A stretch of 20,401 nt of DNA from a virus: positions 1 to 20,401 of the IMG/VR virus record IMGVR_UViG_3300007516_000199; one strand, written 5' to 3'. The notes beneath the pieces were generated by a model that had not been told where the DNA came from, made no database searches, and saw only the letters and a program-made list of their open reading frames with translations. Every line of letters begins with the position of its first letter. The stretch's first letter is position 1. The position numbers were made by a program, and so were the translations under genes. This document shows, one piece after another, positions 5,670-20,261 of this stretch.

Positions 5670-7055
5670 ATGTATTTATACCTAACAGCAAGCTTAGATG
5701 CAACAATATATGAAGGACATCCATCAAGTAATTTTGGTCAATCTTCTTTTTTGAAAGTTGGTCGAGTCCGGGAAGATGATGGATTGAAACGCTATCGTTC
5801 ACTAATAAAATTTGATTTAGATTATGCTTATTCATTATGGAATGGTGGTATTGGTAGTAATTTTATTAATACACATTCGTCAAATCCAACATTTTCTTTA
5901 CATTTATTTGATGTCTACTCGCCACAAGGTAATCAACCATATGGTTTCGAAATTTGTGCAGATAATCTTAGCATCAACAAATTTTCAAACGAAGGACGAG
6001 GAATTGAGGAAGATGGTTATCATACTGGCGCGCCAAGTTGGATTGAACCGATGGGTGGAGTTAGTTGGACAACAACAGGCTCTGACCATTATATTAATGC
6101 TCCTGCTGGTTCAGCATCAATGAGATTTGAATCGGGCGATGAAGATTTACAAATTGATATATGGAATTATGTCGACCTTTACGGTTCTTCAAACAAAGGA
6201 AGGTATGGACTTGTATTGAGATTATCTGACGATGAAACTTCTGATGGTGGATTTGATTCGGAAAATATTGAAGAAGTTAATACTAAAATGTTTTATTCTC
6301 GCCAAACGTCGACAATATTCCAACCAAGACTTGAAATATGGTGGGATAATTCTATTCAAGATGATAAGGGTAGATTCAAGTATGGAGCTTCGAAAAACAA
6401 TTCTCTTGCTTATTATAATTATTCTAAATCAAGATTGCAAGATGTAACAGACAATGACATGTATCTTGAAATTTTTCCGTCAGGTGTTTCACATTTAATT
6501 GGTTCTTATACCGCAGCCCATGTGACAACTGGAATATATCTTGTAGAGAATGTAAATATTACTGGCTCATATGGTACCAGTAATATTGATTATTGGGAAT
6601 TACAATGGAAAAGCGCATCAACGCTTCACAATACCGAATATATAACAGGAAGTAGTGAGGTTAATTATAGCGAGATAAATTCAGACGATGAAATGGTTAT
6701 CAATATAAAAAATCTTAGAAGTATATATTCAGTCGATGAATTTGTCAGATTTGATTTATTTATTAGACCTCGTTATCCAGTATACGGATTTACTTCAGGT
6801 AACGAGCATTTAGGAAATATGATTATACCAGATATGTGGTATGAAATTGTTGACGCTGATGACTTTAGCACAAAATATAAATTTATGCCTTTCAATAATG
6901 TAGCCACTCGATTATCTTACGACAACGGCGGTAATTATTTCAATTTAATGATGTCTTCATTCAATCGTCACCGTACTTATAATATAAAATTAAAATATAT
7001 GTTGAATAATCCAACTATTATACATTCGAAACGATTCTTATTTAAGGTAGTGTAA
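5670..7055 (+). CDS. DNRLRE-type accessory baseplate / surface-binding protein
   Basis: The 461-residue protein is beta-rich and starts directly with a DNRLRE-like module: LTASLDATIYEG (5-16), SNFGQSSFLKVGR (20-32) and RSLIKFDL (43-50). The whole module seems to run to about residue 210, with LVLRLSDDE and a final EIWWD strand. DNRLRE domains are jelly-roll, carbohydrate-binding-like folds found mainly in extracellular proteins. The C-terminal part (about 380-461), with WYEIVDADD, SYDNGGNYFNLMMSSF and a last FLFKVV strand, resembles a beta domain seen at the ends of baseplate-associated phage proteins. Its place between gp6-like and gp7-like wedge genes suggests a virion role, perhaps host surface binding or wedge decoration. 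It shares one base with the next gene. The function is inferred from fold and context. Confidence 0.75.
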   Translation: MYLYLTASLDATIYEGHPSSNFGQSSFLKVGRVREDDGLKRYRSLIKFDLDYAYSLWNGGIGSNFINTHSSNPTFSLHLFDVYSPQGNQPYGFEICADNLSINKFSNEGRGIEEDGYHTGAPSWIEPMGGVSWTTTGSDHYINAPAGSASMRFESGDEDLQIDIWNYVDLYGSSNKGRYGLVLRLSDDETSDGGFDSENIEEVNTKMFYSRQTSTIFQPRLEIWWDNSIQDDKGRFKYGASKNNSLAYYNYSKSRLQDVTDNDMYLEIFPSGVSHLIGSYTAAHVTTGIYLVENVNITGSYGTSNIDYWELQWKSASTLHNTEYITGSSEVNYSEINSDDEMVINIKNLRSIYSVDEFVRFDLFIRPRYPVYGFTSGNEHLGNMIIPDMWYEIVDADDFSTKYKFMPFNNVATRLSYDNGGNYFNLMMSSFNRHRTYNIKLKYMLNNPTIIHSKRFLFKVV

Positions 7056-8107
7056 TGCCAGAAATAGCAATAATAAGTCCAAACGGCGCTAATACACATA
7101 GCGTTGCTCTTGAAAGAAAGAAAAGCAATAAACAAATTTTCACCAATATAATTGATGAAGACTTCATTGAATTTATTATTAAACAAGAGCCATCGGATAT
7201 AGTCATCGAAGATATAGTCATTGAAGATTTAATCAGCGATGAACTATCAAGTACAATGAATGGTTTAAGATTAAGAAAAGGTGCTAACTTAAAATCTTTA
7301 ATAATACCTCAAGTTCTTGCCAAAATTAATGAAAATAATGCTATAACTGTTGAATGCTGGTTCAAGTATAGATTAAGTGGAGAATTTATACCCAATCTTT
7401 ACGCTTATTTATTTTCTTTCGGTAGTCCAAGCACGCCAAATTCATTTACCATTAATCTATCAAGAGATGTTGACATTAGAGGTGTATTAGATATTGCTTA
7501 TGCATCACACAATGTTTTCACGAAAAGAACCAATATTCCCATCAAGAACAATCATTTTTACTACGTATTTTGTTCGATAGGAAGAAGTTTTACTGATTCC
7601 GAAGGTGAAGTTATTCCAGCTGATAGTCAACAGCGAATGATAGTAAACATATATGATTTCACCGATGATATTTGGTATTATAGAAGGACCGAAACAGATA
7701 ATCAATATACACTTTCAAATCCAATAGCTTTTACAGATACTGCTAACAACTTCATTGCAAAAATTGGTGATTTCGTTTTCCCCGAAGCTGCTAATATAGG
7801 CATAAGAGGATTTGATGGCGATGTATTTGGTTTAAGACTATGGAACAAATATGTATCTGATTTTGATGTAATCGACCAATTAAAGCAATTGAAAAATCCA
7901 CTAATAATTAACGGTTTGAATATGACAGAAGACAATTTAATAATTAACATGGATTTTAATGACGCCTCAGGCCAAAATATTTTATATGATATATCTGGCA
8001 AAGGACTTGATATGAATTATCTTAATGCCGACAATCAACCAATACAAGAACAAGATAAGCCACTACCACAATGGATAACTGAAAAATCAATATTTAACGA
8101 TGACTAA
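7055..8107 (+). CDS. LamG/concanavalin-A-like baseplate-associated protein
   Basis: The 350-residue protein looks like a single LamG/ConA-type jelly roll on a short linker. Strands and signatures include LRLRKGANL (about 71-79), NNAITVECWFKY (about 92-103), a FSFGSPSTPNSFTINLS pair, FIAKIGDF, and FDGDVFGLRLWNKYVSDFDV (about 252-271), the last being the usual closing segment of these domains. The tail DNLIINMDFND...DISGKGLDM is also typical. Such folds bind glycans in adhesins and tail fibres. The N-terminal linker (about 36-62) is acidic and carries a tandem DIVIE duplication. It starts on the last base of the previous gene and overlaps the gp7-like gene by 8 bp, and that neighbour contains a similar LamG-like insertion. 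No catalytic site for a glycanase is evident. Confidence 0.75.
   Translation: MPEIAIISPNGANTHSVALERKKSNKQIFTNIIDEDFIEFIIKQEPSDIVIEDIVIEDLISDELSSTMNGLRLRKGANLKSLIIPQVLAKINENNAITVECWFKYRLSGEFIPNLYAYLFSFGSPSTPNSFTINLSRDVDIRGVLDIAYASHNVFTKRTNIPIKNNHFYYVFCSIGRSFTDSEGEVIPADSQQRMIVNIYDFTDDIWYYRRTETDNQYTLSNPIAFTDTANNFIAKIGDFVFPEAANIGIRGFDGDVFGLRLWNKYVSDFDVIDQLKQLKNPLIINGLNMTEDNLIINMDFNDASGQNILYDISGKGLDMNYLNADNQPIQEQDKPLPQWITEKSIFNDD
7196..7225 (+). repeat. 15-bp tandem duplication inside the LamG-like gene
   Basis: Two direct copies of a 15-base unit (7196-7210 and 7211-7225) differ at one base, C against T, and encode DIVIE twice in the acidic N-terminal linker. The third-position difference is silent. 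This looks like a simple slippage duplication that keeps frame. Confidence 0.85.
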
Positions 8108-11100
8108 TATTGTACCATTCACATTAGAGTCATTTACTGGTTCTATAAACATTAATAATATTACCGCTTATTTAATTGATAGGCGAGGCGGTGGACGTAT
8201 TGCCTATACTTTTGTTTCTGGTGAATTTATTGAAGATGAAAGAAGCGTAGGCTCTTATAAACTAAATCTATCGAGACTGGCTAAGTCAGTTCAGCCGGGT
8301 AATTATACGCTCGTTGTTATGGGATTGGAACCACTAATAACCTCAACGATAACTGCTATCAGTCAAGGCAAATATGAAGTAAAAATTTCATTATCTGAAT
8401 TATCTAAATTTGAAGATGTCAAATCAGAATTAATTTTTACGCATGATTTAGTTTCAGATGAAGACACATACACGATTGTTAATGTTTATGTCAACGAAGA
8501 AGAACTTGTTCTTAAGCTTATAAAGCCGTTGACGACAGAAAAAGTCGGCGATAATGTTCAAGTAAGTCGTAGATTATTCGAAAATACAAAAATTCCCGTA
8601 CGTGTCGAAAAAGAAAAAGATGTATTAAATAACCTTGAATTTCTTTTGAATGCCAATACATCAATCATCGAACAACAAACCGATGAATATAGTTTTACGG
8701 ATTTGTTTGGTTCGGGAAATATGTCGGAATCAATAAGACATGAGTTTCTTAGGTTAAAAAATGACACGCAGCTTAATATCGACTATAGTGATTTTAGTAA
8801 TCATACCTATTTTGCATCAGCACAAACTACTCTTGATACTGCTTACAATAAAATTAAACAATTTATTGATTATGAATCAATAAAATTTAATTTCGAAAAT
8901 AGTAATCTTAAATCTATTCATGATAGTTATGATAATTTACAGCGTGAGATGATGCACGATTTCACTGGTTATGAATGGCATGTTTTTAGTACTGGTTATC
9001 CACATTTGGGCGTGGGAACATCATCGCTGCTTCACTATACAACAAGTCAAGTTAGTGGTTGGTATGTTGTACAAAGTTATTCAGCTTCTAAATGGGATGA
9101 TGAAAACGGCGCTCAGTTATGGCAGCATATACCAAATTATTATTTTATGAATGATGATTATTCTTTTATGTATAATATTATTCATGTTAAAGCAACTCAT
9201 TTTGATTACATTAAACAACATGTTGACCAATTAGTTAATTTTGTAAATGCTAATTATGATGGAATTGACATGCCTCCCAATGAATTAATTTGGGTGCTTG
9301 GAAAATTTATAGGTTTTGAACTTCATGATGGAAATTCTCTAAAGTCGTTATCACAATATTTACTTGGTGAAAATGTTTCAGGTTCAAATGCAACGGTGCC
9401 ATTAAGAACAATGACACATAAGCTTTGGCAAAGAATAATCAATAATATAACTTACATTTTCAAAACTAAAGGTTCAAAAGAATCAGTCAGAGCTCTATTA
9501 AATTCTTATGGAATACCAGCAGATGTTCTTCAATTTAATGAAGCCGTTATCGGAGGAGCTACAACAGAGACAGGTTCACTTGAAACATTTTATCATCCAA
9601 TTAAATCATCACGATTTATCAATGTTGGCAATAATGATGGTCAATTGAGTTTTGATATAATAGATTTTATTGGTTCAGGTTCAGATAATAGTGGAGCAAG
9701 AACATTTGAATTAAATTGTAAATTACATCCAAGCGCACTTGGCGGTCTATCTAATATTAATCCTTTATTTACTAATTTACCATTAGAAAATGGAATTTTT
9801 ATTGTAAAAAATACTCCAACTTTAGAACCAGCAATACAATTAATGGGTGAAACTGCCGAAATTGGTGATGGTACATTTTCAGCTTCGCAATTATTTAATG
9901 ATAAGTTTTTCTATATTGCCTTTGGAACTGATAGAGATGACCCTACATTAGCAGTTACGAGTAATTCTTTTTTTAGAATAATACAATACGATGAAGATGG
10001 AATTTTAGCTTATAATACTGGATTTTCTTCTCGAACATTTACCGATGGTCAGCAAATGAGTGGATTTACAAATTACACATCTAATCCAACATGGTCATGG
10101 AATGCTGGTTCTGATTTTGCATCTATGTCAGTTATGGAATTTCGTTTATGGGATAGAGCATTAACAGAAACAGAGATGCTTCAACATGCACAAGATTTCA
10201 AAAGCATTATGCTCGAAGAACCATTGAGTAATTTAGGAACAGTTGATGAAAGATGGAATCTTCGAGACTTACGTGCTCAGTATCATCTTGACGACAATAT
10301 TGATTTGGATATTGATAGTATCAATACTCTAAGAAATTCATCTGTTAATCCAATTGATATCAGAATGACAAATACCAACTACGGTGCCATTTCTCATCCA
10401 ACCGTTTCATATTGGGGAAGACTTGTAAAAAATACAAAAACATTCGTTCCTTCAGTAATCGGAAATAGATATGATAGAAAAATTCGTATTGTATCTGGTA
10501 CTGAATCACCTAACATTAGTGATTTACCTGTAATTGACGCAGTATGGTCACCGGTTCATGCTATCGACCGTGATATACTTGAAACAATTGCCAATCTTGA
10601 TTTTAATGATTTGCTTGGAGACCCTTCTGAATATTATTCTGGAAGTTATCATAAACTAAAAGCATATCGTGACAATTATTTCAATAAGTATTTTGGAAGC
10701 TATGATTACAATAAGTTTATTAAATTAGCTACAAATATGGACCGTAGTCTTAAAAATTCAATTCAACAATTGATTCCTGCACGAGCTAAATTGAATTTCG
10801 GTCTTCAGATAGGCAGTCATATGCTTGAACGTAATAAGTTTCAATTCAGAAATATAAACGTGCAAATTCAACCAAAACCTTCAGGTAGTATCGATGAAGG
10901 TAATTGGTATGCTACTTACGCACAGAGTTATCTTGAACAAATAGGCAATTTTAACTTTGACTCAATGGAATTTATTGGTAAATTTCCTTATATAGTCGTT
11001 CAAGATGGCCACCCGGGTCCTTGGGAACTTAATGTTGAAGGTGAAACACATACAGCTGGTTTATATCAAACTTTTTACCAATCTGCTATATTTAATACGG

Positions 11101-11258
11101 CATCACTTAAAAACTATCAGCAAAATTATATGTACGCATATGAAGAAATAGCATATGCAACATATCTTGGGACTATTAACCGAGATATTGATTACGTAAC
11201 AACAGCATCGGCATGGGTAACAAGTTCTACATTTGGTGAGCAAATTGTTATCAAGTAA
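8100..11258 (+). CDS. gp7-like giant baseplate wedge protein with LamG-like insertion
   Basis: At 1052 residues this is close to T4 gp7 (1032 residues), the large wedge protein that spans the baseplate. The N-terminal 110 residues are beta-rich. Residues about 185-270 hold a conserved helical block (SIRHEFLRLKNDTQLNIDYSDF-like start, then TTLDTAYNKIKQFIDYESIKF). About 434-475, LWQRIINNITYIFKTKGSKE followed by SVRALLNSYGIP is a hallmark of phage tail proteins of the gp7 / tail protein I type. About 530-700 form a LamG/ConA-like insertion, from ARTFELNCKLHPS to MEFRLWDRALTETEM. The C-terminal region (about 859-916, NYFNKYFGSYDYNKFIKLA, then LIPARAKLNFG) resumes the tail-protein pattern. It overlaps the preceding gene by 8 bp. 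The family call comes from motif and context; the LamG insertion could serve receptor binding. Confidence 0.82.
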   Translation: MTNIVPFTLESFTGSININNITAYLIDRRGGGRIAYTFVSGEFIEDERSVGSYKLNLSRLAKSVQPGNYTLVVMGLEPLITSTITAISQGKYEVKISLSELSKFEDVKSELIFTHDLVSDEDTYTIVNVYVNEEELVLKLIKPLTTEKVGDNVQVSRRLFENTKIPVRVEKEKDVLNNLEFLLNANTSIIEQQTDEYSFTDLFGSGNMSESIRHEFLRLKNDTQLNIDYSDFSNHTYFASAQTTLDTAYNKIKQFIDYESIKFNFENSNLKSIHDSYDNLQREMMHDFTGYEWHVFSTGYPHLGVGTSSLLHYTTSQVSGWYVVQSYSASKWDDENGAQLWQHIPNYYFMNDDYSFMYNIIHVKATHFDYIKQHVDQLVNFVNANYDGIDMPPNELIWVLGKFIGFELHDGNSLKSLSQYLLGENVSGSNATVPLRTMTHKLWQRIINNITYIFKTKGSKESVRALLNSYGIPADVLQFNEAVIGGATTETGSLETFYHPIKSSRFINVGNNDGQLSFDIIDFIGSGSDNSGARTFELNCKLHPSALGGLSNINPLFTNLPLENGIFIVKNTPTLEPAIQLMGETAEIGDGTFSASQLFNDKFFYIAFGTDRDDPTLAVTSNSFFRIIQYDEDGILAYNTGFSSRTFTDGQQMSGFTNYTSNPTWSWNAGSDFASMSVMEFRLWDRALTETEMLQHAQDFKSIMLEEPLSNLGTVDERWNLRDLRAQYHLDDNIDLDIDSINTLRNSSVNPIDIRMTNTNYGAISHPTVSYWGRLVKNTKTFVPSVIGNRYDRKIRIVSGTESPNISDLPVIDAVWSPVHAIDRDILETIANLDFNDLLGDPSEYYSGSYHKLKAYRDNYFNKYFGSYDYNKFIKLATNMDRSLKNSIQQLIPARAKLNFGLQIGSHMLERNKFQFRNINVQIQPKPSGSIDEGNWYATYAQSYLEQIGNFNFDSMEFIGKFPYIVVQDGHPGPWELNVEGETHTAGLYQTFYQSAIFNTASLKNYQQNYMYAYEEIAYATYLGTINRDIDYVTTASAWVTSSTFGEQIVIK

Positions 11259-14050: not shown

Positions 14051-14626
14051 ATGATTTTAGGTCTTGATATTAGCACAACAGCTGTCGGTTGGTGTTTAAC
14101 TAAGGTTGCTGAAAGTAAAGAAATAATTATCGTTGACGGTGGGTTCTGGAAGAATGATAATAGAGACATCTATGACAACGCAGAAGAGTCAATCAAGCGC
14201 ATAGATGATATTATTGACCGCTTCAAGTCATCAATCAATCTGGTGGTCGTAGAAGACTCTGCAAAGAAATTTACGCAAGGAAAATCAAGTGCCGATACCT
14301 TATTCAAACTTTTTTCTGTAAATTCTATTATTTGTTATCACATATCTAAAATCAGAAAATATAAGGCTATTCGGCTCGCGCCAGCTTCGGCTCGTAAAGC
14401 AGCTTGGGGAACTACATTTTTGTCAAAGATAGAACGCGAAATGACTTTTCCTGATATTGCAAAGACAAATCAGCGTAAACATCAGATTTATCTTGCAGCA
14501 GTTAAAAAATATGGTGAAAGATTAGAAGAGTTTATCGTTATTAACCGAAGGTCAGATAAAATGGTTAAGGAAAACTATGATTTTATTGATAGCTTAACAC
14601 TATCGCGCGCAGGCTGGATAATATAG
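14051..14626 (+). CDS. RuvC-like Holliday junction resolvase
   Basis: The 191-residue protein has the RNase H-like nuclease layout of RuvC. The first strand MILGLDISTTAVGW supplies D6; LVVVED (64-69) supplies E68; and the C-terminal YDFIDSLTLSRAGW supplies a D177-x-x-D180 pair, as in the DxxDA ending of RuvC. These four acids would bind the two catalytic metal ions. RuvC enzymes cut four-way DNA junctions symmetrically; in a phage this would debranch replicating DNA before packaging. T4 uses the unrelated endonuclease VII for the same step. The gene has a good Shine-Dalgarno (TAGGAG) and lies upstream of primase and Mre11-Rad50, forming a DNA-metabolism group. Other RNase H-fold resolvases cannot be excluded. 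Confidence 0.83.
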   Translation: MILGLDISTTAVGWCLTKVAESKEIIIVDGGFWKNDNRDIYDNAEESIKRIDDIIDRFKSSINLVVVEDSAKKFTQGKSSADTLFKLFSVNSIICYHISKIRKYKAIRLAPASARKAAWGTTFLSKIEREMTFPDIAKTNQRKHQIYLAAVKKYGERLEEFIVINRRSDKMVKENYDFIDSLTLSRAGWII

Positions 14627-14663: not shown

Positions 14664-15602
14664 ATGGAAAATCAGATAATCAAGATTCTTAAAAAGTATT
14701 TAGGTGAGCATAAAAAACATAGCTCTATTCAATATAGCTTTGTTTGCCCTAAGTGTAAAAAGTCCGATAGATATAAACTTCAAGTGAATGTAAAAAAAAA
14801 TATGTTTCACTGTTGGGTTTGCGAATACAAGGGTCGTAATATAGTTAGTTTGCTTAAAAATTTGCAAGCGTCTGTAACAGACATGCAAGAACTCGCAAAA
14901 CTATTAGGTGTACCTGAAATTAAAGAAATTGAAGATACTCAATATAAAAGAATATCTTTACCATGCGATTTTAATTCTTTGTTGATGCCTCGAAAAACTA
15001 TTTATGCTAAAGCAGTTTATGATTACGCTATAAAACGGAAATTAACACCACAAATTATGGCCATGTATAATCTTGGCTATAGTCTTGAAGAAAAATATTT
15101 GAACTATCTAATCATTCCATCTTATAATATAAGTGGAGAGTTAAATTATTTTCAAGCACGTAATATTATTGATGATGATTGGCGTTCAAAATTTCTTAAT
15201 CCGCACGTTGAGCGTAATAAAATAATTCCTTTCGAACTATATGTTGACTGGAATGAACCAATTATCATAGTTGAAGGTTTCTTCGATATTAATCATTACC
15301 TTAATTGTTTACCATTATTAGGAAGTGCAATCGTCAAAAAAGACGAAGGAATACCTAAATTAGTTTTGACATTATTAGAATGCCAAACACCAAAAGTTTT
15401 CATCATGTTAGACCCGGACGCCATAAAAAAAGCGCATGATATTTGTCGTATACTTTATAATTATGGAATCGAAGTGTGGTTTGTTGACATATCACCTCAC
15501 AAAGACCCCGGAGTATTAAGCTATTCACAATATGAACATTTTATAGAAAATGCTATAAAAGTGAATGAGCACGTTTTATTTCAGATGAAAATGAGGAATT
15601 AA
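14664..15602 (+). CDS. DnaG-type DNA primase (zinc finger plus TOPRIM)
   Basis: The 312-residue protein has the two parts expected of a bacterial/phage primase. The N-terminal zinc-binding domain shows C28-x2-C31 and C50-x2-C53 (FVCPKCKKSDR and MFHCWVCEYKG). The TOPRIM fold shows E204 and D207 in IIIVEGFFDIN, the DxD pair D250/D252 in IMLDPDA, and a KDPG turn at 280-283 comparable to the GKDPDE region of DnaG. It would make RNA primers for lagging-strand synthesis. It is near T4 gp61 in length (342 residues) and lacks a C-terminal helicase domain, so a separate helicase must be encoded elsewhere. The gap before it lacks a strong Shine-Dalgarno; only an AAAGAG lies 15 bases upstream. The stop is one base from the next start. 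Confidence 0.88.
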   Translation: MENQIIKILKKYLGEHKKHSSIQYSFVCPKCKKSDRYKLQVNVKKNMFHCWVCEYKGRNIVSLLKNLQASVTDMQELAKLLGVPEIKEIEDTQYKRISLPCDFNSLLMPRKTIYAKAVYDYAIKRKLTPQIMAMYNLGYSLEEKYLNYLIIPSYNISGELNYFQARNIIDDDWRSKFLNPHVERNKIIPFELYVDWNEPIIIVEGFFDINHYLNCLPLLGSAIVKKDEGIPKLVLTLLECQTPKVFIMLDPDAIKKAHDICRILYNYGIEVWFVDISPHKDPGVLSYSQYEHFIENAIKVNEHVLFQMKMRN

Positions 15603-15603
15603 T

Positions 15604-18600
15604 ATGTCCGAAGATAAAAGTCTCGTAATAGCGCACATAGCTGATGTTCACGTAAGGAACATTTCGCGCCATGAAGAGTATAAAAATATTTTTGCCAAAC
15701 TTTACAAAGATTTGAAATCAAGAAAAATTGACCTTATTGTTATTGCAGGCGATATTTTTCATTCGAAGACACAGTTATCACCTGAGTCGCTTGGTTTAGT
15801 CAGCGAATTCTTAAATAATTTAGCCGATATAACTCAAGTTTTAGTTATACCCGGTAATCACGATGCTAACTTATCTAATCAAGATAGAATGGATGCTTTA
15901 TCACCGGTAGTTGAATTGCTTAATCATAAAAATATTTATTATTTTAGTAAATCAGAAATTTGTAGATTTTATGTTACATCAGCTGATATGTTAATCAATC
16001 TTGGTGTATTCAGTTGCATAGACACTTCTGGATATGATAGAGTAAATGAAGAAATCAAAAAAAATACACCTAATGATAAAATAAACATTGCTTTGTATCA
16101 TGGTGCTATTAATCTTGCAAAAACAGATATAGGTTTTACTTTTCATGATGGGCGCAATCCAGAATCATTCGATAATTGGGATTTTGTACTTCTTGGAGAT
16201 ATTCATAAGCGACAAGATGTTAATGAAAAAGGTAATATGAGTTATCCGGGTTCACTGATTCAACAGAATTTTGGCGAATCACTTGATAAGGGATATTTGC
16301 TTTGGACAATTAAATCAAAAACCGATTGGAATAAACAGTTTGTTCGACTTTACAATTCATTAGGTTATTATACGCTTAATATTCGTGATAGTAAAATTTC
16401 ACTTCCAAATTTAACTGATGTACCAGACAATGCACGATTTCGTATTATTTTTCATGATAGTGTAAACATAGCTGACATAAAAAGAATACGATACGAAATA
16501 ACTTCTAAATATAATCCGCATTCGATATCAACAGCCATCAAGCACAATGAAATACAATTATCTAATATTGATGATAATGATGTTGTAAATGTTCGAAATA
16601 AACTAACTCAAGAGAAACTTTTTAGAAATTATTTTGAAATTAGTGACCATATTGTAGATGAAGATATGTTTGCTCAAATTTGGAACATACATGAAGATTC
16701 GTGGAATGAGTTGATGAATACATATGAAGAAGCTGAACGCTTCACAGACTGTAAAATCAAAAAACTTGAATTTGAAAATTTGTTTAGTTATCGTGGCGAG
16801 CATAAAATTGATTTTGAAAAAATGCCCGGAATAACTGGAATATTTGGTGCGAATGCTTCAGGTAAATCAGCTATTGTTGATATTTTATTGTATGTATTTT
16901 TTTGTAATACATCACGATTCATTAGTAAGATTGGCAGAATAGTAAATAACAAAGAAGATGTTAAGGAAGGGTGGGCAAAAGTATATTTTGCTGTCGGCGA
17001 TACAGATTATTATATCTATCGAAAAACAACTAAACTTACAAATAAATATGAAGAATTTATTCGTTTTCGTTCAGATGTTGAATTTTATAGAAAAGACAAA
17101 GATGATAATTGGCTTTGCTTAAATGGTATTCAAAGAACAGAAACAGAAAAAATGATTCGTAATATCATCGGTACGATTGAAGATATTACCGTGACTTCAA
17201 TATCGCCGCAAAATGCTCTTACAAAATTTATTGATTATGGTTCAACTGACAAGAAAAAAATGCTCAATAAATTTCTTGATATTGACGTGTTTAGTGTTCT
17301 TTACGATTTAGCTAAAGAAAAAGCAAATACTGTTGAACGTATTTTGAAAAATTTCAAAAAAACTGATTATAATCAACTTAGAATTCAATGTGAAAAAAGT
17401 AACAAATTATCAGCAATGGAATTAACAAAAATTGATTCCGAAAAAAAATTAGTTGTGCAAGAACTTGAAAATTCAGAACAACATATTATCGAATATAGTG
17501 AAAGAATATATTCTGATATCGAAGACATCGACATATCAAAGATTCATCGCTTACTTGAAGCAAACAATGATAAAATAAAAGAACATCAAAAAGAACTTGA
17601 AGAAACTAAGCAGTGGATTGTTAATAAAAATGATGAGATGAATGAATTAAAAGTTTACTTAAGCGATGACAATCCTATAATGATGAGTATAGCAGTTTTC
17701 AATGAACAATTAAGTAACCAAGTTGATTCGATGGAAAGAATTAACAAAACAATTCATACTATCGAAAGTTCACTTGAACAACAAGCCAAAACTATTAAAT
17801 TTTTCGACAGCAATCGCTGTGATAGCACGGGCTGCAAATTTATGGAAAAAATTGGTAATTTTTTAGAAGAACAACCAACTATAAGAGATAAAGTCGAAGA
17901 ATTAAAAGTTATTCGAACAACACTTGTAAAAGCTATGCAATCAATAGAAAGTCAAATTTCCGAAAAAAGACGTGAACTTAAAGTTAAACGTGATAATTTT
18001 CATAGAATAAAATTATCAATAGCTCAGCGTAAAGTAAAACAAAGTAATGTAGAAAGTGCTATACTTAAAGTTGATAATAACATTGGTATACTTCAACGTG
18101 AAATTGCACGATATGAACTCAATTCTAAAAAAATTGAAGAAAATACGTTTAACAACAAAAAGATTAAGCATGAAAGAATTAATAAAGAGTCTTTGAAGAT
18201 TGATTTGGAATTTATTGATACCAAAATTAATAAAATTCGAACTGAAATTATTGTTAATGAAACAAAAATAACTCAAATTAAAGAACAATTTGAGCAAATG
18301 GAAAAAGTAGAAAAAGAATTTAAGGCTTATTCGTTGTATTTAGAAGCTATTCATCATAAGGGTGTTCCGTATACTATTCTTTTGAAAATGCTTCCTCGTA
18401 TAAATTATGAGATTAATAAAATTTTATCTAATGTCGTACCATTTAATATTGTTATCGAAAATCCTGATGAAGAAGAAAAAAAGACTCTCGAAGTTTGGAT
18501 TGAATATCCAAATGAAGAAAAACGTTTATTAAATCTTGGTTCTGGTATGGAAAAAGTTGTCAGTGCCATTGCTATCAGAGCCGCATTAATGTCTATCTCT

Positions 18601-18825
18601 AATTTACCGAGATTCAACATTTTTCTTATTGATGAAGGATTTGGTGCGCTTGACCCTGAAAATCTCAGCGCTTCACATTCGATGTTTACTTACTTATGCA
18701 ATATTTTTGACAATGTGATTATTATTACTCACATTGACTCATTAAAAGATATTGTAGATTGCACAATTGATGTAAAGCGCGATGATGAAGGCGCATCATA
18801 TTTCTATATAACAGAAGGTAAATAA
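15604..18825 (+). CDS. Fused Mre11-Rad50 (SbcD-SbcC, gp47-gp46) nuclease
   Basis: One 1073-residue chain carries both subunits of the DNA end-processing nuclease. Residues 1-about 370 are the Mre11/SbcD phosphoesterase: HIADVH (D14, H16), AGDIFH (D50), PGNHD (N85, H86), YHG (H166) and GDIH (D199, H201). Residues about 383-1073 are Rad50/SbcC: Walker A GANASGKS (415-422), long coiled coils (about 540-900) broken by a hook with C739 and C744, the signature-like LGSGMEK (978-984), Walker B IFLIDE (1006-1011) with a D-loop LD (1016-1017), and an H-loop H1043. In T4 the separate gp46 and gp47 are needed for recombination-dependent replication. The frame is open throughout with no internal stop. 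Odd points: the fusion itself, C-x4-C instead of CxxC, GDIH instead of GHxH. It starts two bases after the primase stop, with GAGGAATT as ribosome site. Confidence 0.93.
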   Translation: MSEDKSLVIAHIADVHVRNISRHEEYKNIFAKLYKDLKSRKIDLIVIAGDIFHSKTQLSPESLGLVSEFLNNLADITQVLVIPGNHDANLSNQDRMDALSPVVELLNHKNIYYFSKSEICRFYVTSADMLINLGVFSCIDTSGYDRVNEEIKKNTPNDKINIALYHGAINLAKTDIGFTFHDGRNPESFDNWDFVLLGDIHKRQDVNEKGNMSYPGSLIQQNFGESLDKGYLLWTIKSKTDWNKQFVRLYNSLGYYTLNIRDSKISLPNLTDVPDNARFRIIFHDSVNIADIKRIRYEITSKYNPHSISTAIKHNEIQLSNIDDNDVVNVRNKLTQEKLFRNYFEISDHIVDEDMFAQIWNIHEDSWNELMNTYEEAERFTDCKIKKLEFENLFSYRGEHKIDFEKMPGITGIFGANASGKSAIVDILLYVFFCNTSRFISKIGRIVNNKEDVKEGWAKVYFAVGDTDYYIYRKTTKLTNKYEEFIRFRSDVEFYRKDKDDNWLCLNGIQRTETEKMIRNIIGTIEDITVTSISPQNALTKFIDYGSTDKKKMLNKFLDIDVFSVLYDLAKEKANTVERILKNFKKTDYNQLRIQCEKSNKLSAMELTKIDSEKKLVVQELENSEQHIIEYSERIYSDIEDIDISKIHRLLEANNDKIKEHQKELEETKQWIVNKNDEMNELKVYLSDDNPIMMSIAVFNEQLSNQVDSMERINKTIHTIESSLEQQAKTIKFFDSNRCDSTGCKFMEKIGNFLEEQPTIRDKVEELKVIRTTLVKAMQSIESQISEKRRELKVKRDNFHRIKLSIAQRKVKQSNVESAILKVDNNIGILQREIARYELNSKKIEENTFNNKKIKHERINKESLKIDLEFIDTKINKIRTEIIVNETKITQIKEQFEQMEKVEKEFKAYSLYLEAIHHKGVPYTILLKMLPRINYEINKILSNVVPFNIVIENPDEEEKKTLEVWIEYPNEEKRLLNLGSGMEKVVSAIAIRAALMSISNLPRFNIFLIDEGFGALDPENLSASHSMFTYLCNIFDNVIIITHIDSLKDIVDCTIDVKRDDEGASYFYITEGK

Positions 18826-18830
18826 ATGAA

Positions 18831-20261
18831 ATGGCACCAATTAAGCAGATAACATTTCCTTTACCAAAGGGATTAAGCGAGCTTAATACGATTGATATTG
18901 AAGATTTAAGTGTAAATTCACCTCAATATTTTAATGTGTCTAAGCTAAAATTAATATACGGTTTGGGTTATCATTCGATAGTTATTAGAGGGAGCAATAC
19001 ACTTAAGAAGTTTTCAATTATAAATTATGAGATGTATGATTCCTACAGCGTACAAATTCCTTGCCAAGTTAAGGTAAATAATATAACTGTTGGTGCTACA
19101 AGTGCTTTGCTTTCATTTTACATAAACAATATTCATTCGAATGGTGAATGTACATTGATTCTTGTTGGTAGCGAAAAAACAGGCCGTCATTCAACTCGTG
19201 ACCCAGCTGTATCAAATGTTAGATGGGTACAAAAATTAACAATTGATAAATATCGTAATAATGACGATGATTTGATTTTTAATGGTTTACCCGAATTATT
19301 GTATTCCGAAACTGCAAATGGAGTTGTTAATGATAATGGTGATGAAGTAACTCTCGCTAATGTTGACCTTAGTTTATTAACTCCATTCTCTGGTAAACTT
19401 GAACGTGTTTCAATTTATTCACGTCTATCTAATACTGAAAACGATTTTGGTCTATCAACAATATATAATCTTAGACCAAGTTCAGAAACTACTGGTAGCA
19501 TTGTTGATGTAGATTTAAGTGAGTATGTACAATATGCATCGGAATCACAAATCACTAATGAAGTAAACGATTCGAATATCAATTTTAGTGTGCCACTTGT
19601 TATAATAGATAAGCCAACTTATTATGATTTGAAAGTAACTTTTGACGATGGCAAAGATTCGTTTGCGCGCAATGATATCGGGGAACCATTATCTATTATA
19701 CTTAAAAATATACCATTCAGTGGCGTAGAATCAGTAGCTTCATTAAATTACGAAAATGTCATAGGTGTTCCTAATGTTAAATGGGTAAATTCACCAAACG
19801 AAGAAAATACTGAATCAGGCACGCTCGGAACTTTTAATACTGCAATTGAACTTACTTGGCTTGATATAAATTTATTATCGCTGGGTTCATTTCCACTAAG
19901 AACAACAGATATTTATGGTATTCCAAGAGATTTAACATATCGTAACGCTCGTACGGCAAGCAAATATGCTGTATGGATGTTTATAAGCAATGAAAGAGAA
20001 TATTCACCTGACTGGCAACATCCGGGTCGAGTTGTTTTATATAACGCTAATTTATTTAATCAATCATTGTTTAATCAAAAATCGCTTCCTACACCTGATG
20101 GAAAAGGCGCATGGTATTTTAAGGGTTTCTTTGGAACAAATTACGCAACAATCGACGTACCAAGAGGTCATACAGTATCTTTTTGGGTTGGTATTATTAC
20201 AAAATCAACTAAAATACCTACTCTTGATTACTATCGTCCAAATCTAAACCCAGCAATATAA
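18831..20261 (+). CDS. hypothetical beta-rich, probable structural protein, 476 residues
   Basis: I do not recognise the family. The protein is rich in Asn, Ser, Thr and alternating hydrophobic residues, as in beta-sandwich virion proteins, with few Cys and no membrane segment or signal peptide. Two related spots, SNVRWVQ (about 128-134) and PNVKWVN (about 314-320), lie 186 residues apart, each followed after 30-50 residues by a DLSLL/DINLL strand, hinting at two similar domains. The C-terminal part (about 390-460) contains YAVWMFISNERE, GAWYFKGFFG and TVSFWVG, aromatic strands typical of receptor-binding or fibre proteins. It follows the Mre11-Rad50 gene after five bases; an ATG at 18826 opens only eight codons and is not the start. 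A tail, fibre or decoration role is an inference from composition. Confidence 0.7.
   Translation: MAPIKQITFPLPKGLSELNTIDIEDLSVNSPQYFNVSKLKLIYGLGYHSIVIRGSNTLKKFSIINYEMYDSYSVQIPCQVKVNNITVGATSALLSFYINNIHSNGECTLILVGSEKTGRHSTRDPAVSNVRWVQKLTIDKYRNNDDDLIFNGLPELLYSETANGVVNDNGDEVTLANVDLSLLTPFSGKLERVSIYSRLSNTENDFGLSTIYNLRPSSETTGSIVDVDLSEYVQYASESQITNEVNDSNINFSVPLVIIDKPTYYDLKVTFDDGKDSFARNDIGEPLSIILKNIPFSGVESVASLNYENVIGVPNVKWVNSPNEENTESGTLGTFNTAIELTWLDINLLSLGSFPLRTTDIYGIPRDLTYRNARTASKYAVWMFISNEREYSPDWQHPGRVVLYNANLFNQSLFNQKSLPTPDGKGAWYFKGFFGTNYATIDVPRGHTVSFWVGIITKSTKIPTLDYYRPNLNPAI

Follow-up and report, generated by a model that had tools for sequence, protein, structure and literature searches.

Fusions of Mre11 and Rad50 into a single chain were described in 2011 by Yoshida, Claverie and Ogata in Mimivirus R555, five bacterial strains (some of them plasmid-borne), six eukaryotes and Bacillus phage 0305phi8-36, and that study argued that both the domain order and the linker of 9–12 residues suit the Mre11-Rad50 complex (PMC3175470). 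From metagenomic data, where R555 homologues share scaffolds with phage primases, the same authors inferred that such homologues are plentiful among aquatic viruses, phages probably among them; they also concluded that fusions had arisen repeatedly (PMC3175470). T4 gp46/gp47 and the SbcCD proteins of SPO1 and of Staphylococcus phages have the same two domains, a short coil and a replication/recombination gene neighborhood, but in these phages the domains are encoded by two separate genes.

The locus analyzed here is on IMG/VR virus record IMGVR_UViG_3300007516_000199, and “the window” refers to the whole 20,401-base stretch. Its protein is a divergent R555-type Mre11/Rad50 fusion: the sequence is new, while the kind has been known since 2011. 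The novelty implied by an earlier sequence-only reading of this DNA therefore does not stand, both because of the published description (PMC3175470) and because the fused form turns out to be standard in a phage clade. Like R555, the window protein has Mre11 at the N-terminus and Rad50 at the C-terminus of one chain, has the first His of GHxH replaced by Asp (the same change is reported for Mimivirus R555; PMC3175470), is predicted to have a short linker after the Mre11 helix-loop-helix, and lies in a viral setting near a phage primase. It differs from R555, which we compared by its published description, in belonging to a tailed phage, in its length (1073 aa; R555 has 1351 aa) and in its CX4C hook.

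The Fusion Gene and Its Genomic Setting

The window carries myovirus-type tail genes (a gp25 baseplate wedge and a baseplate wedge subunit), and the host of the fusion gene is a myovirus-like phage. The gene itself (15604–18825, plus strand, as are its parts and its two upstream neighbors below) is a single open frame of 1073 aa plus stop, with the SbcD and SbcC families recognized in its respective halves; the region around the join, 16700–16760, where a stop or frameshift had been suggested as the thing to check, contains neither in the sequence of the record. A ribosome-binding site, AGGA (15594–15597), lies 6 nt 5′ of the fusion ATG, and a gap of 1 nt separates that ATG from the stop codon of the gene directly upstream, a DnaG-type primase (14664–15602; PHROG primase, 2.8e-33). 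Further upstream is a RuvC-like Holliday junction resolvase gene (14051–14626; PHROG, 2.7e-07). The same neighbors recur among the 142 relatives with enough upstream DNA, 132 of which have a primase-like ORF 5′ of the fusion and 48 a RuvC-like resolvase ORF upstream, and in SPO1 and Staphylococcus phages the split SbcD and SbcC also lie near a primase and a resolvase. Since the window is a 20-kb piece of a genome, a second, unfused Mre11/Rad50 pair may exist elsewhere in that genome. Two other ORFs of the window, at 8100–11258 (1052 aa) and 18831–20261 (476 aa), had no Pfam match; for the latter, PHROG gave only a weak hit (0.0031), of unknown function.

Proposed Function

We consider it very probable that the gene encodes a phage SbcDC fusion of the R555 type that probably serves, in the manner of gp46/gp47, in end processing for recombination-dependent replication and repair. 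Two fusion chains would probably pair via their Mre11 domains, ATPase heads and hook, and ATP binding and hydrolysis by Rad50 would control whether the active site of Mre11 is open or closed to DNA. As in T4 with gp46/gp47, that site may trim DNA ends to 3′ single strands, which would then be used for recombination-dependent replication and repair. In the fused chain, a short linker would hold Rad50 and the helix-loop-helix of Mre11 together and so fix a 1:1 stoichiometry; this stoichiometry, together with altered ATP gating, is a reasonable inference from the fused arrangement.

It is very unlikely that the fusion mainly degrades host DNA or counters host defence instead of acting in phage replication: by their annotation, T4 gp46/gp47 are needed both for recombination and for breaking down host DNA, but the conserved primase and resolvase neighbors fit replication and recombination, and the two roles are not mutually exclusive.

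Domain Organization and the Join

The N-terminal half of the protein matched Pfam Metallophos (3.5e-13), PHROG SbcD (7.9e-28) and NCBIfam SbcD (1.1e-17), and the C-terminal half matched PHROG SbcC (1.6e-49), NCBIfam SbcC (3.6e-12) and SMC_N (8.8e-10, slightly below the curated cut-off); in a phmmer search against the PDB, the N half matched Mre11 chains and the C half Rad50 chains. The sequence-only reading had proposed one 1073-residue Mre11-Rad50 chain with a phosphoesterase at the N-terminus, an ABC ATPase with coiled coil at the C-terminus and a short join at about residues 370–383. With the frame open throughout and both families recognized by the SbcD and SbcC profiles, the single chain and the identity and order of its domains were borne out, and the predicted structure described below places the join where it had been put.

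The Mre11/SbcD phosphoesterase domain occupies residues 8–240 (15625–16323), as judged by profile and PDB matches and by its metal motifs. A predicted Mre11 helix-loop-helix follows at residues 333–373 (16600–16722), a label given from its position and from comparison with the published analysis, and leads to the join at residues 374–383 (16723–16752), where an 8-residue linker runs into the first Rad50 strand; the join includes the conserved R379 and position 383. The Rad50 N-terminal ATPase lobe (residues 384–561; 16753–17286) contains the Walker A motif GANASGKS at 415–422 and Q536; the coiled-coil arms (residues 562–916; 17287–18351), with the hook in between, are predicted as long helices at 562–736 and 745–916 with short breaks and form a short Rad50 coiled coil; and the C-terminal ATPase lobe (residues 917–1073; 18352–18822) carries the signature at 978–984, Walker B at 1007–1011, D1017 and H1043.

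An AlphaFold2 model of the fusion, built from a 36-sequence alignment, had a mean pLDDT of 80.9 and a pTM of 0.51, a value that makes the relative placement of domains unreliable while the local structure is usable. Locally, the model predicts helices at 333–346 and 353–373, a linker of 8 residues (374–381) and the first Rad50 strand from 382, an order that fits an Mre11 helix-loop-helix leading into the first strand of Rad50 and agrees with the R555-type layout of capping and helix-loop-helix regions ahead of a short linker. Foldseek searches of the PDB gave Mre11-Rad50 complexes as top matches, with SMC proteins also listed. Among viral proteins, the best fold matches were giant-virus exonucleases of DNA repair, from Tupanvirus, Harvfovirus, Yasminevirus and Catovirus among others. 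A further fold alignment, spanning the full length of the model, was to a Listeria phage LMTA-57 protein of 1009 aa named “recombination exonuclease” (BFVD A0A068CB47); this protein may have been fused independently, or it may reflect a sequencing artefact.

Two in-frame ATGs, M355 and M371, lie just 5′ of the Rad50 domain and could allow the full chain to be made together with a separate Rad50 from an internal start. We regard this as very unlikely: the best ribosome-binding-site match is only GGA, at M371, with none convincing, and of 82 relatives only 12 combine an in-frame ATG in that region with a match of at least 4 bases.

Catalytic Motifs and the Hook

The Mre11 motifs were located at D14xH16, GD49-50, H53, GN85H86D, H166 and GD199IH201, and those of Rad50 are intact: Walker A at 415–422, the Q-loop Q536, the signature S980-G981, the Walker B residues D1010-E1011, the D-loop D1017 and the switch His H1043. 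Both halves of the Rad50 ATPase are present; part of it is missing from some published Mre11/Rad50 fusions. The catalytic residues are conserved across the 167 proteins of the fusion family. The earlier statement that all catalytic motifs can be located thus holds for the finding of the Mre11 and Rad50 motifs, but with two departures: motif V has an Asp for a His, and the hook is not CXXC.

Motif V reads GDIH (residues 198–201; 16195–16206), Asp199 replacing the first His of the canonical GHxH, and all 167 family proteins have an Asp at this position. Among other phages, the split proteins of the T5 type have GDLH, and SPO1, T4 and the fused Sphingomonas PAU protein have GHxH, so that the Asp is no marker of fusion alone. 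The hook, CDSTGC (residues 739–744; 17818–17835), is CX4C in place of the canonical CXXC of the Rad50 zinc hook at the apex of the coiled coil; the window is alone in this among the 167 proteins, the others having mostly CX2C, CX6C or CX7C. Because of these two departures, in motif V and in the hook, the nuclease activity of the protein is uncertain. As a separate observation, Mre11 motif I has a Gln (DxQ for DxH) in the jumbo-phage fusions of PTm1, PAU, MA9V-1 and pT24 (L259–L262) and in 12 of 167 environmental members.

Distribution of the Fused Form

A fusion in Microcystis phage Mel-JY01, annotated as one CDS, is 31% identical to the window protein over 99% of its length. A tblastn match to a separately sequenced isolate phage, with E = 6e-127 across 99% of the length, rules out chance resemblance. 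The same architecture is annotated as one CDS in Tenacibaculum phages PTm1 and pT24, Chryseobacterium phage MA9V-1 and Sphingomonas phage PAU, and in a 735-kb phage the fusion is one ORF. A single-protein search of viral contigs gave no close relatives of the window protein (best identity about 35%); it is thus divergent, and profile searches were needed. The full-length profile returned at least 560 relatives from IMG/VR. Since ranking by a full-length profile favors fused forms, each half was also searched alone: the best 80 relatives of the Mre11 half were all fused, as were 79 of the best 80 relatives of the Rad50 half, the exception being cut by a contig end. The search for phages sharing the fusion, proposed as a check in the sequence-only reading, yielded the five named isolates together with at least 174 distinct fused environmental proteins. 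Among plasmids, no record had one place covering 80% of the query, and the matches there were to single domains. Genome contigs gave five fused matches; each came from a metagenome-assembled bin and is probably a viral contig.

Fused chains are the rule in a large clade of phages. The alternative that two neighboring genes were merged in error, during assembly or sequencing, by loss of a stop or a frame change is almost certainly wrong and is rejected for the clade: the record is a short metagenome piece, but the same fusion is a CDS in separately sequenced isolate phages and occurs in at least 174 distinct environmental proteins, and its junction residues are conserved, as those of an artefact would not be.

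Mel-JY01 and the IMG/VR relatives resemble the window protein as single chains of about 1050 aa, with 31–35% identity, a primase upstream and a conserved junction; the window protein differs from them in forming a deep separate branch, in having Cys at 383 and not Trp, and in its CX4C hook where they have CX2C, CX6C or CX7C. The fusions of PTm1, pT24, MA9V-1 and PAU share its domain order, its single CDS and its fused clade, but are about 1300 aa long, with longer coils, CXXC hooks and DxQ in motif I.

The Junction and Its Evolution

R379 is conserved in 164 of the 167 proteins, and Trp occupies position 383 in the same number, with Cys in the window protein. Trees were built from 26 fused and 10 split proteins, for the full length, for Mre11 residues 1–300 and for Rad50 alone; they have several long branches, were made by a quick method, include E. 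coli SbcCD as the sole cellular row and cover neither giant-virus nor plasmid fusions. The fused proteins formed one side of one branch in each, with SH-aLRT support of 99 (full length), 94 (Mre11 1–300) and 98 (Rad50), and in every tree the split T4 gp46/gp47, SPO1 and Staphylococcus SbcCD proteins lay outside this fused group. In a tree with such long branches, the window protein is a deep separate branch outside both main environmental groups. A single fusion event could account for this pattern among the phages sampled. This does not contradict the repeated fusion concluded in 2011, since that conclusion covers a wider set.

More speculatively, all sampled phage fusions may go back to a single ancient fusion that this clade has never reversed, and the conserved junction (N363, R379, W383) might couple Mre11 and Rad50 functionally rather than serve as a passive linker; we hold this only as a tentative possibility. 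If true, this would set the clade apart from the 2011 proposal of recurrent and mutually unrelated fusions, and the window would represent a deep separate lineage with a W-to-C change at 383 and a CX4C hook.

Implications and Insertions in the Gene

Single-chain Mre11-Rad50 is no curiosity, then, but what a large clade of phages normally encodes, although several isolate genomes label it merely “metallo-phosphoesterase” (PTm1, pT24, MA9V-1 and PAU) or “AAA domain containing protein.” Because its stoichiometry would be fixed, a short-coil single chain of about 1050 aa could suit the study of how the ATP state of Rad50 gates Mre11. Hook spacing varies inside this one fused family (L022, L009, relatives and the window protein), with CX2C, CX3C, CX4C, CX6C and CX7C all found, a natural range useful for studies of the hook.

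In two relatives the gene is itself interrupted. In the 484-kb phage LR756508.1 (L003), the Mre11 part is broken at about 8580–9640, directly 3′ of the GDIHKRQ motif, by an insertion, likely an intron or homing element, that carries an ORF for a TnsA-like endonuclease (8677–9594); Rfam searches of this phage and of the window found no intron and no other RNA family. In L076, an insertion at about 6940–7700 splits the Rad50 part at Walker B (FILDEP), and its frame resembles a GIY-YIG homing endonuclease. From these two cases, homing elements seem to enter the fusion gene at conserved catalytic motifs.
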